The position numbers were made by a program, and so were the translations under genes. From contig JAOZHS010000001.1 in assembly GCA_026014745.1 (NCBI GenBank), forward strand, positions 124,001-188,000: a stretch of DNA of 64,000 bases, in the 5' to 3' direction. Source of the DNA: Candidatus Bathyarchaeota archaeon (lineage in GTDB: Archaea > Thermoproteota > Bathyarchaeia > Bathyarchaeales > Bathycorpusculaceae). Positions 7,218-54,930 of this stretch are shown here, piece by piece (position 1 is the first letter of the stretch; each line of letters starts with the position of its first letter). Under the pieces are notes generated by a model. The model was given only the letters and a program-made list of their open reading frames with translations, did not search any database and was not told the DNA's origin.

Positions 7218-8387
7218 CTATGCCATAATAACTATTAGCGCAGCAAACAAGGCAGCGGTGGTGATGGCATCGGCTAAGGAGCTTCCTAAAGGTAAAACAA
7301 AGTGGTCAGGGTCTAGCCCTCTTTTAAAAGTAAGTATCGAAATGGCAAATGTGACCAAGGTTATGGCTACAAATGCGATGATGTTGGCAATTAACAGCAG
7401 CCCCAACAGAACCATTATATTCTGTACTCCTAACGCACCGTTTATTGAAAGCGATAGTAATCCTAAAATCATGAAGAGCAATAGCGACGCAAGCCATGCG
7501 CTGAAAATATTTTTTGCATGATTTTTAATTGAAGCGAAGGAGGGTGTAAGGATGCCTAGCGCGAGTTTTGTGGTTGCGGCTGAACCTATCACCAAGCTTA
7601 CGTCTCCCATCATATCAATCATAGCGGGATAAACGGTGTATATTTCACGATTATGCGGGGCAAGGTTGCTTATGCCTTTTAGTATAGTTCCCGTTATGTT
7701 GGCCATGAACGCTACTAAAACCATTGTTAGCAGGGATTCTTTGAGAGTGTTTATGACTTCTTCTTCACGGACATTTTTAGGTAAAATATAGAGAACTAAT
7801 AATACGTTTACCAAACCGAAAACCACGATTGCACCCTGACCGATGTAACCGCCCGAAAAGTAGAGGTTCAACACGGCAATATAGAGGAAAGTTATGATGA
7901 TGCCTGCTATTGTTGAAACCGCGGGGTAAACAATGGTATCTGGGTCTAAGCCTTCCTTAAAGGAGCTAAAGGTGAATTTTACCGTTAGCAGGGTGATGAG
8001 TAATCCAAGCGACATTGTTGAAACCATAACTGCTAATATGGCTGGAAAATCCGCGAGGGTTATCCCCCAAAAGAGGCTTCCGAATACAATCGCGATGGCT
8101 GATATGGTGGCACTTGTTGCTAGCGTCAAGACAATCATGGCTTGGATGAGTTTGTAGAAGGTTTTGGTGTTGTTCCTAAATCTGGGGTAAACGGTGCCTA
8201 AGTGTAAGGCTGTGCTTAAGCGCCCCGTTAATAACCCCGTTATTACGCTTTTGACGCTGACGACAGCTGGGTAGAGTGCTATTGCCCATGGTGATAGCTG
8301 GAAAATGCCCAGTTGCACCGCAATCATAAAACCTGCAACTAAACCGCCAATATCAAACAGGCATGCTACGGCGGTTTCTTTAAACAT
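7218..8387 (-). CDS. MgtE/SLC41-like divalent cation permease (COG1824 type)
   Basis: Integral membrane protein, probably a Mg2+ or related divalent cation transporter. It has about ten hydrophobic helices in two similar halves. DIGGLVAGFM with YPAVVSVKSVITG in the first half matches YPAMIDMMGDVSL with the late LPLGSSLADA segment in the second, as in SLC41-type carriers. There is no cytosolic CBS region; regulation presumably comes from the downstream PhoU/TrkA-C protein. The start is uncertain. A strong GGAGG at 8429-8433 is too far from ATG 8387, and the only in-frame codon at normal spacing is ATA at 8418-8420. Confidence 0.82.
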   Translation of the reverse strand: MFKETAVACLFDIGGLVAGFMIAVQLGIFQLSPWAIALYPAVVSVKSVITGLLTGRLSTALHLGTVYPRFRNNTKTFYKLIQAMIVLTLATSATISAIAIVFGSLFWGITLADFPAILAVMVSTMSLGLLITLLTVKFTFSSFKEGLDPDTIVYPAVSTIAGIIITFLYIAVLNLYFSGGYIGQGAIVVFGLVNVLLVLYILPKNVREEEVINTLKESLLTMVLVAFMANITGTILKGISNLAPHNREIYTVYPAMIDMMGDVSLVIGSAATTKLALGILTPSFASIKNHAKNIFSAWLASLLLFMILGLLSLSINGALGVQNIMVLLGLLLIANIIAFVAITLVTFAISILTFKRGLDPDHFVLPLGSSLADAITTAALFAALIVIMA

Positions 8388-8682
8388 TCCAAAGAAACCT
8401 TTTGAGCCGGCATGTGTTATATTAGACGCCTCCTAAAGTCCAACAGGCTTAGCACAATAAAAAACGTGTCTTTCTGGGTACTTATGGGTTAGTCGACTGA
8501 TTTGTGTATCATCAAAAGTTTTCACTTCAACAGTTCCTTTTTGTGCCTGAGAGGTGTGGACTCCTTCCATAGTATTCGCCTTTCTGTTGTTTTGGCTGTC
8601 CACATTGCACTAACCGCTGTGTTTGCGGGCTGCCAAAGCCTTTTTTATTTGCCTGCCGAAGTTTCTGAGAGTCACCTATGCC

Positions 8683-52962: not shown

Positions 52963-54243
52963 CTAAAAAGAGATTTTTGTTGCTGAAGGGATTTTTCCTA
53001 AGATTTTGGCGGTTGCTTTCTCTACTTCGGCGCGGTGGGTCTGGTCGGTGTATACTCGTAGGATGTTCATGAAGCCCTTGAGGGTTTCAATAATCTTTGA
53101 GCTTTCACTGAGGCGTTGGAGCATTTTTTCTCCTGCTTGGCGCCGCGTGAACACGGGGATCTCCATGGATTCCATGAGTACCGCGTGATGGTAAGGTACC
53201 GACGCGACAGTTGGTACATCAATTATGACTGCGTCAAGGTCTACTTGGGCTTCTTTGGCGATTTCGCTCTGTATCTGCCGGCGGTAGGATTCTCGTCCAA
53301 ATAAGTTTGAACTCAGGGTGTCTTTTTCGTAGAAGGTACGTTCGTAGGCGCATTTGAGCATGCGGCGGTTTTCAAGGTTGTTTATGATTTCTTGGGAGGC
53401 TTTGCATCTTTTGAGTGCAGTCCACACCGTGTAATCGTCCAGCTCCAGGTATTCTTCGGGGGTTGTAAAGCTGGTTAAGTTGAGTTCGTTGTTGGCTTTC
53501 TCCATGGCGGCGGCTAGCATAATTTGGGCAGCTCTTCCCACACGATGGAAATAGATGCTTTTGAACGATTCAATACGGGCAATCATGAATGCCTCTAGTG
53601 CTGAGAGCGCCCCCAACTCTACTGCCAAGTTCTCACCTAAAATGTCAAGTGCATGGATTAGGCGGTAAACATCTATGAAGCCATACTCTGCACCCGTGTG
53701 GTAAGTGTCGCGCATAATGTAGTCCTGTTTATCCACATCCACTGCGCTGCTGATGATTTGGTCCAAAAACGCCCTGCTTGGCTTATGTAACTTGCCTACC
53801 GCTAAGGCGGCGACTTGTCGGGGGTCAAAGCCTCTTTTGGAGAGTTTGTCGGCTAATTCACTTTTCTCAATAATCCATGCGGTTAGGTCTTCATGGGTTT
53901 TTTCAAGGTTTTTTATTAACAGATGCTCAAACACGTGGGAGAAGGGACCATGTCCACAGTCATGAAGTAGGGCGGCGATGCGGCAGACATCCACTTCTTC
54001 GTCGTTGACTACGCGGGAGATGTTGGGGTTAACCAGCACTTGACCTGCAAGATACATGACGCCTAAGCTGTGTTCGAAGCGCGTATGGTTGGCGCCGGGG
54101 TACACGTATTCTGAGCCTGCCAGTTGGCGGAGTCTACGTAGCCGCTGCATGGGGTAGGAGTCAATGATGATTTTTTCTGCATCCGTAACGTAGACATATC
54201 CATGGACGGGGTCTTTGATTTCTCCCCAGTAAGCTTTCGGCAC
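52963..54243 (-). CDS. HD-superfamily phosphohydrolase (COG1078)
   Basis: Metal-dependent phosphohydrolase of about 426 residues, related to dGTPases and SAMHD1, probably cleaving dNTPs or other nucleotides. ANHTRFEHSLGVMYLAGQ near residue 52 supplies the first His, and ALLHDCGHGPFSHVFEHL near 91 is the HD pair. A later DYIMRDTYHTG near 184 supplies the last Asp. GTG 54243 is preferred, with GAGGT six bases upstream. It is divergent from thymidylate kinase, which fits a nucleotide-pool role. Confidence 0.88.
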   Translation of the reverse strand: MPKAYWGEIKDPVHGYVYVTDAEKIIIDSYPMQRLRRLRQLAGSEYVYPGANHTRFEHSLGVMYLAGQVLVNPNISRVVNDEEVDVCRIAALLHDCGHGPFSHVFEHLLIKNLEKTHEDLTAWIIEKSELADKLSKRGFDPRQVAALAVGKLHKPSRAFLDQIISSAVDVDKQDYIMRDTYHTGAEYGFIDVYRLIHALDILGENLAVELGALSALEAFMIARIESFKSIYFHRVGRAAQIMLAAAMEKANNELNLTSFTTPEEYLELDDYTVWTALKRCKASQEIINNLENRRMLKCAYERTFYEKDTLSSNLFGRESYRRQIQSEIAKEAQVDLDAVIIDVPTVASVPYHHAVLMESMEIPVFTRRQAGEKMLQRLSESSKIIETLKGFMNILRVYTDQTHRAEVEKATAKILGKIPSATKISF

Positions 54244-54318
54244 AACCAAACCTCGTTGTAAGCTATATTTAGGTAACTTCCATTAATGTGTAACGCTAAA
54301 CCCAAGGAGTAGACGGAC

Positions 54319-54930
54319 ACGGCAAAAAAAGGCGTTTTTCTGGTTATCGAAGGCTTGGATGGAAGCGGAAAAACCACCCAAGCTCAGTTGCTGGCCAAAA
54401 AATTAGCTCCAAACTACCCAATTTTCCTCACTGCTGAGCCAAGTTACGGCAAGACGGGCACCTTCATTCGCGAATGCTGCCTCTATGAACAACAGCGTCT
54501 TCCCACAGAAGCCGAAGCCCTTCTCTTCGCCGCAGACCGCATTGAACACATGTATAACGAAATCAAGCCTGCATTAGAGGAGGGTAAACTTGTGATTTGC
54601 GACCGCTACCTTTACTCGTCGTTGGCTTATCAGGGTAGTGCAGGGCTGAGTTTAGATTGGATAAAAACCATCAATGCTAGGGCTTTGCAGCCGGATTTTA
54701 GTGTGCTTTTGGATGTGCCTGCGGAACGTGTGCTTGAGCGATTGCAACGGCGTAAATCAGTGATGGAAACGTTGGAGACTCAGCAGAAAGTCCGCGAAAT
54801 CTATATGCAGTATGTGGAGAAAGGCGAGTTGATTTGTGTTGACGGGGACCGTTCAAGAGAGGTTGTGGCACAGGATTTGTATGAGCGGGTTCTGGGCTTA
54901 CTTAAAACTGCTGAGAGTTTTGTGCCGTAA
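54319..54930 (+). CDS. tmk: Thymidylate kinase, apparent ACG start
   Basis: Phosphorylates dTMP to dTDP. The first ATG/GTG/TTG in frame is TTG 54355, which would cut into the P-loop GLDGSGKTT and delete the first beta strand. Reading back gives an ideal N-terminus, (M)AKKGVFLVIEGLDGSGKTT, starting at ACG 54319, with GGAG at 54306-54309 nine bases upstream and a stop at 54310-54312. The remaining motifs are normal: TAEPSYG, CDRYLYSSLAYQ, and a RRKSV lid. The product is 203 residues. ACG may be a true non-AUG start or a point change or sequencing error from ATG. Confidence 0.88.
   Translation, partial: TAKKGVFLVIEGLDGSGKTTQAQLLAKKLAPNYPIFLTAEPSYGKTGTFIRECCLYEQQRLPTEAEALLFAADRIEHMYNEIKPALEEGKLVICDRYLYSSLAYQGSAGLSLDWIKTINARALQPDFSVLLDVPAERVLERLQRRKSVMETLETQQKVREIYMQYVEKGELICVDGDRSREVVAQDLYERVLGLLKTAESFVP

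Follow-up and report, generated by a model that had tools for sequence, protein, structure and literature searches.

The thymidylate kinase gene (tmk) of an archaeon that apparently belongs to the genus Candidatus Bathycorpusculum (Bathyarchaeia) raises the question of which codon starts its translation. The gene lies in a window of 64,000 nucleotides, C1:124001-188000 of a genome of 2.7 Mb in three contigs that is 97.5% complete (G000 below); positions without a contig name refer to this window. The open frame at 54313-54930 on the forward strand holds 205 codons after an in-frame TAG (54310-54312), which closes it on the 5' side, and runs unbroken to TAA 54928-54930. Its first in-frame ATG, GTG or TTG (standard start codons below) is TTG 54355, which encodes the leucine of the P-loop EGLDGSGKTT (GAA GGC TTG GAT GGA AGC GGA AAA ACC). 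A sequence-only reading had placed the start at ACG 54319 and had left two explanations side by side, namely a rare non-AUG start in an essential gene or an ATG turned into ACG by sequence error. It is argued here that tmk is very probably translated from ACG 54319, positioned by a Shine–Dalgarno (SD) sequence, as one case of a genus-wide habit of near-cognate starts.

The tmk gene and its candidate start codon

A translation from ACG 54319 scores 181.3 bits against TIGR00041 (dTMP kinase; cut-off 83.25) over profile positions 2-195 of 196, and 167.4 bits against PF02223 (cut-off 27) over positions 1-184 of 185. It is 74-79% identical to eight genus orthologues. The coding sequence, 54319-54930 with the stop codon, is predicted from these whole-profile matches above curated cut-offs to encode dTMP kinase, the catalytic function being part of that prediction. 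A search of the genome with the Tmk protein matched one place. The second PF02223 match in the genome, with 22.2 bits, or 29.7 together with its frame neighbours (cut-off 27), belongs to a 595-aa protein on contig C2 (L002:1237-3024, reverse strand) whose C-terminal half includes a region weakly resembling thymidylate kinase; owing to this weak resemblance it was rejected as a second tmk. The gene at 54319 is read as the only canonical tmk found in the genome.

The sequence around the start is ccc aag gag TAG acg gac ACG gca aaa aaa ggc gtt. A start at TTG 54355-54357 would leave an ORF of 191 aa that lacks strand beta-1 and the beginning of the P-loop. The coding sequence upstream of this TTG is conserved in all five genomes compared, and identity by codon position before the first standard start codon is 0.82/0.85/0.53, which indicates constraint on that stretch. 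The claim that a conserved N-terminus and P-loop precede the first standard start codon is thereby borne out, TTG 54355 lying inside the P-loop itself. ATG 54286-54288 on the same strand is in frame, but TAG 54310 ends it after eight codons. Two ACG codons remain before the P-loop. ACG 54313 stands only 3 nt after GGAG and outside the start column of the relatives. ACG 54319-54321 follows the SD sequence AGGAG (54305-54309, a 5-nt match to AGGAGGTGATC) by 9 nt, a spacing of 3 nt in the AGGAGGTGATC register (register spacing below), which is also the most frequent value in the genus, and it is aligned with the starts of relatives. The sequence-only reading was correct both in calling the GGAG well spaced and in taking ACG 54319 as the sole usable candidate.

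A TATA-like sequence, CTATATTTA, occupies 54263-54271 on the forward strand. If it acts as a promoter, it would place the transcript start near 54293 and give a leader of about 26 nt that holds the SD sequence. Of the 20 genus relatives that have the tmk start column, 15 carry the motif TATATTTA no more than 100 nt before it. The divergent neighbour of tmk is a gene for an HD-domain protein (52963-54249, reverse strand; PF01966, PF19276), mentioned for context, for which the mechanical ORF list suggests TTG 54249 as the start. The two genes share an intergenic region of 69 bases (54250-54318), and in many genus relatives this region carries, by eye, the block TATATTTA ... TATAATGTGTAACGC or a close variant, which looks like a two-way promoter.

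The start column in related genomes

The search for tmk covered 61 genomes including the own one and gave a match in 59. Fifty loci were inspected (the own and 49 from relatives); the P-loop pattern anchored 40 of them, and the ten unanchored loci were excluded. Comparison of the codon across relatives, which the sequence-only reading had suggested, established a start column: in 20 genus relatives the position of ACG 54319 holds ATG (18), GTG (1) or TTG (1). ACG occurs in the own genome only, that is, in 1 of the 21 genus loci with that column. In eight further members of the genus the start lies two codons later, while G026 was too divergent to place, G004 was unanchored and G030 gave no match. 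In this alignment the tmk ACG appears as a one-base change, specific to the own genome, in an established start column.

The SD sequence before the column also differs among these loci. Its longest match is 5 nt in the own genome, and in the relatives 3 nt (15 of 20) or 4 nt (5 of 20); a match of 5 nt is also present in G020, one of the genomes in which the start lies two codons later. A longer SD at the ACG is what compensation for a weaker codon would look like, as a single case that gives no proof.

A survey of start columns in the genus

The own C1:1-468000 was compared with stretches of eight genus relatives, which limits the survey to portions of nine genomes from a single genus. Because the key genes were discovered within this genus, the standard starts of their orthologues elsewhere give a biased comparison. 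In a first set of six genomes, 163 own genes had orthologues in at least two genomes, and 11 of these showed conservation upstream of the first standard start codon. Four were retained on coding conservation, third-position divergence and the lack of a usable standard start: tmk (ACG), cdhD (ACG), a gene for an MgtE-like transporter (ATA) and a helix-turn-helix (HTH) gene (ATC). The other seven (G000_1097, 2191, 2229, 207, 2782, 181 and 84) were dropped as conserved non-coding upstream sequence, ordinary TTG or ATG starts, or antisense shadows. The register spacing in the own genome is 3 for tmk and the MgtE-like gene and 4 for cdhD and the HTH gene; among standard starts of the genus with an SD sequence it is 2-5 in 602 of 707, with a mode of 3.

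Nineteen orthogroups passed the coding filter, and nine were read as having near-cognate starts. The remaining ten were set aside for the same non-coding, ordinary-start or antisense reasons, or for stretch edges or N. A screen for SD-spaced columns listed 15 orthogroups, four of which were used; in the other 11 the column fell within or next to a gene with an ordinary start, or in sequence that is antisense or belongs to an RNA gene. Several columns remain at lower strength. The purF gene has ATA in all three genomes, with no SD by the measure used and an upstream ATG in G015; sufS has ATA in one of three genomes versus GTG in two, its SD being 8 nt away in register; and two further orthogroups tentatively show CTG opposite TTG. 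In the own genome, CTG was read as the start of G000_1955 and of a sugar nucleotidyltransferase-like protein (LKALILAGGFATRLRPLS; named by eye), for which CTG also occurs in G012 and G017. With the MarR-like regulator described below, near-cognate starts were read in 7 of 222 own frames after removal of shadows, although some of these 222 frames may themselves be shadows; this recurrence makes an isolated sequencing error the weaker explanation.

The frequency of such codons was estimated from 271 orthogroups aligned over the nine genomes. A consensus column with a standard start and an SD was present in 168, giving 854 rows: ATG in 547, TTG in 179, GTG in 87 and another codon in 41. Among these 41, the rows with an SD and without an alternative standard start with SD comprised eight near-cognate codons (CTG 4, ACG 2, ATA 1, AAG 1) and one other codon, which corresponds to a CTG displaced by one codon. 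An in-frame standard start without an SD lies upstream in six of the eight, and the AAG row is less plausible as a start. Near-cognates thus make up about 1% of the rows at consensus start columns (8/854). The excess of eight over one proves little alone, because any single change of ATG yields a near-cognate codon; the evidence for function lies in the conservation of near-cognates across species and not in an excess over random codons. Orthologues of cdhD (TTG or ATG), of the MgtE-like gene (ATG) and of a MarR-like regulator (ATG, in G013) share their start column with near-cognates. SD matches were longer at non-standard than at ATG starts (29 versus 547 rows, rank test P ~9e-6), a difference that is only suggestive, since the rows come from related genomes and both sets were partly chosen by SD.

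A separate observation concerns a block of some 90 bases that precedes a long gene (own C1:119841 onward). It is conserved in four of six genomes and shows no coding pattern, in that third positions are not more variable; it is possibly an RNA element or a promoter.

Genes with recurrent near-cognate codons

The cdhD gene was identified by matches to PF03599 and TIGR00381. The codon behind the motif GGTGA was compared at 30 loci and is ACG in 13, TTG in 15 and ATG in one, the last locus (G021) being uninformative. In the own genome the start column holds ACG and no usable standard start lies upstream. In this genome and in G015, G008 and G018, all with ACG, the TGA of GGTGA leaves no upstream standard start. 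In the other nine ACG genomes GGTGA contains a GTG in frame, three codons upstream, as a formal alternative start; no SD was seen before this GTG in the two leaders inspected (G012 and G017).

In the HTH gene, which encodes a small protein, 22 of 30 loci have a near-cognate codon in the register of the own ATC (ATA 11, ATC 6, ATT 5), while the remaining eight show other codons or layouts. The own gene has no upstream standard start. Seven of the 22 have an in-frame standard start upstream (G011, G012, G010, G024, G023, G022 and G006), and one lies downstream by four codons in G012, G022, G006 and G003 and by three codons in G002. Neither an upstream in-frame standard start nor one within the next four codons is present in 13 of the 22. 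The G010 gene has almost no SD.

The MarR-like regulator (C1:117879-118694, PF01047) has ACG in its start column in eight of nine genomes and ATG in one (G013). An SD match of 4-7 nt precedes the column in all nine, and that of the own genome is weak (TGAT, 4 nt). Five of the eight ACG genomes have no in-frame standard start upstream, and G000, G012 and G024 have one. The own regulator has an ATG five codons upstream, so that the absence of an upstream standard start does not hold for it. The codon before the ACG is ATC in seven of the eight and ATT in one, and the start could be this preceding codon, which would still be near-cognate; ACG is favoured over it by its distance from the SD and by the ATG that G013 has in the column.

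The MgtE-like transporter gene (7218-8420, reverse strand; PF01769, 64.6 bits) has ATA 8420-8418 in its start column behind an AGGAGG SD at 8429-8434 on the same strand. The column was read at 24 of 30 loci, with ATA in six, ATT in five, ATC in one, ATG in ten and two unclear. Of the ten ATG codons, five share the register, two are displaced by one codon and the other three occur at other places close to the N-terminus. Among the 12 loci with ATA, ATT or ATC, three (G006, G013 and G003) are one codon off in protein register, and two of these three share the same DNA alignment column; the offset is consistent with the loss of one codon from the own gene. The own gene offers no standard start before its conserved coding region. 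Its first in-frame ATG follows 11 codons after the ATA, and this downstream ATG counts against the ATA start, while the codons between them are conserved with third-position divergence.

Alternative explanations

The alternative left by the sequence-only reading, that base 54320 is a consensus or assembly error and the organism has ATG, draws on the ATG in 18 of the 20 genus relatives with the tmk column and on the ACG being a singleton there. Against it stand the near-cognates at consensus columns described above, some of which are common to separate assemblies; at their frequency of about 1%, a genuine change would be more likely a priori than a substitution error that happens to hit a start codon. 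In addition, none of the other 20 loci with the column has an SD as long as the one before this ACG, and the own genome, with 3 split-gene candidates among 180 targets, falls within the range of 1-5 counted in the other eight genomes. An error is therefore considered unlikely. The recurrence of near-cognates in other genes and the long SD strongly favour non-AUG initiation; as the case does not stand alone, the word "rare" in the original formulation needs qualifying. A lost start, with tmk as a young pseudogene or a strain-level variant, would agree with the change of the codon relative to relatives. Pseudogenisation is nevertheless very unlikely, because the gene is the sole canonical tmk found in a nearly complete genome and its frame of 205 codons is unbroken; the codon-position identities upstream of the first standard start speak for constraint as well.

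Two further explanations keep an AUG as the start. TAG is recoded in some archaea, and a start at the in-frame ATG 54286 with readthrough of TAG 54310, for example by pyrrolysine, could be imagined on that basis. It is scarcely credible here: the best PylS match in the own genome, at 34 bits, stays below the cut-off of 178, the stretch from ATG 54286 to the start column varies among relatives in length and frame by eye, and transcription directed by the TATA-like box at 54263-54271 would begin only after this ATG. Editing of the mRNA from C to U would turn a genomic ACG into AUG and account for the ACG cases, and according to the accessible text of a study of chloroplasts, such ACG-to-AUG editing of starts is known there (PMC9845219). 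The start columns of the same genus, however, also hold AUU, AUC and CUG, from which editing of this kind yields no AUG, and it is highly improbable as the explanation for tmk.

Proposed mechanism of initiation

Direct initiation at ACG 54319, the preferred reading, would proceed with ordinary components. The strong SD (AGGAG) would position the 30S subunit so that the ACG, at normal distance, lies in the P site. The ordinary Met-tRNAi (CAU) would then initiate there by pairing at two of three positions, with the middle one mismatched. By the same route, a small fraction of the genes of the genus may use ACG, AUA, AUU, AUC or CUG as conserved start codons, with methionine as the first residue and a longer SD offsetting the weaker codon.

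The own initiator tRNA has the anticodon CAU, the pair A1-U72 and GGG/CCC in the anticodon stem, features that we take to mark it as an archaeal initiator, and it looks ordinary, 30 of the 44 tRNA places having been examined. The initiation factor aIF1 of the relative G010 matches aIF1 of PDB 4mo0 over residues 1-101 with 114 bits and looks ordinary in sequence. As far as these comparisons reach, neither the own initiator tRNA nor the aIF1 of G010 stands out as unusual. The reports consulted in part describe aIF1 as destabilising initiation on non-AUG codons in Sulfolobus and as having a fidelity role in Pyrococcus (PMC6237735, PMC8211752). Since aIF1 acts against non-AUG starts, a relaxation would be expected on or around it, although this is an expectation only. 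In a broader and tentative reading, somewhat less probable than even, relaxed start selection would be a trait of Bathycorpusculum or of the wider Bathyarchaeia. The SD and the CAU tRNA would suffice at CUG, ACG, AUA, AUU and AUC in about 3% of genes, essential ones included, through changed initiation fidelity (aIF1, aIF1A or aIF2, rRNA or tRNA modification), and selection would be retaining some of the near-cognate codons as fixed translational throttles.

Relation to known systems and significance

Starts of the infC and pcnB kind, at AUU or AUC, are known in a few bacterial genes, and discrimination by IF3 is used there for autoregulation. The present cases resemble them in having a single near-cognate codon behind an SD and a weak start that is conserved in some genes. 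They differ in that several unrelated genes of one archaeal genus are involved and in that ACG and CUG are included. Non-AUG starts of chloroplasts, as presented in the accessible text of one report (PMC9845219), are likewise kept in certain genes and have been proposed as a regulatory layer. However, initiation in chloroplasts is of bacterial type, and that text mentions ACG in connection with editing and with a petA start mutant, but not among conserved starts (PMC9845219).

Near-cognate initiation in yeast, according to the part of the study consulted, uses UUG, ACG and AUU, a set that overlaps with the present one in ACG and AUU (PMC6898956). It is described there as low-level (PMC6898956), whereas in this genus initiation would be directed by the SD, and some conserved genes apparently have no start other than the near-cognate codon. 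Among archaea, the accessible text of a Ribo-seq study of Methanosarcina mazei gives CTG starts for 5% of 314 unannotated small ORFs (PMC11456600). Near-cognate CTG starts in an archaeon are thus shared with the present case; the difference is that they belong to unannotated small ORFs, that ACG and ATA are absent from its main text and that its accessible text describes no conservation of these starts between species (PMC11456600). For Haloferax volcanii, the portion consulted of another report lists 82.0% AUG, 17.8% GUG and 0.2% UUG (PMC4574771). Work on prokaryotic start-codon switches, in the text available, indicates that weaker start codons tend to pair with stronger SD sequences, as at the own tmk; this concerns AUG, GUG and UUG, and its main text contains neither ACG nor AUA (PMC5622118). 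Among the open-access papers that the searches listed, none describes initiation at ACG in archaea or start codons in Bathycorpusculum, subscription papers lying mostly outside the scope of the search. Near-cognate initiation is known elsewhere; what appears to be new is that an archaeal genus uses it recurrently and conserves it.

Such starts also bear on annotation. Prokaryotic gene finders generally accept only ATG, GTG and TTG, and under this limit such genes would be truncated or missed, among them tmk and the gene for the acetyl-CoA synthase subunit CdhD. To our knowledge, ACG is absent from the start list of NCBI table 11, and if the reading proposed here is real, it would add a codon from outside that list. 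The genus would then be a natural test of the stringency that start-codon selection needs in archaea, and of whether weak starts are conserved for regulation.
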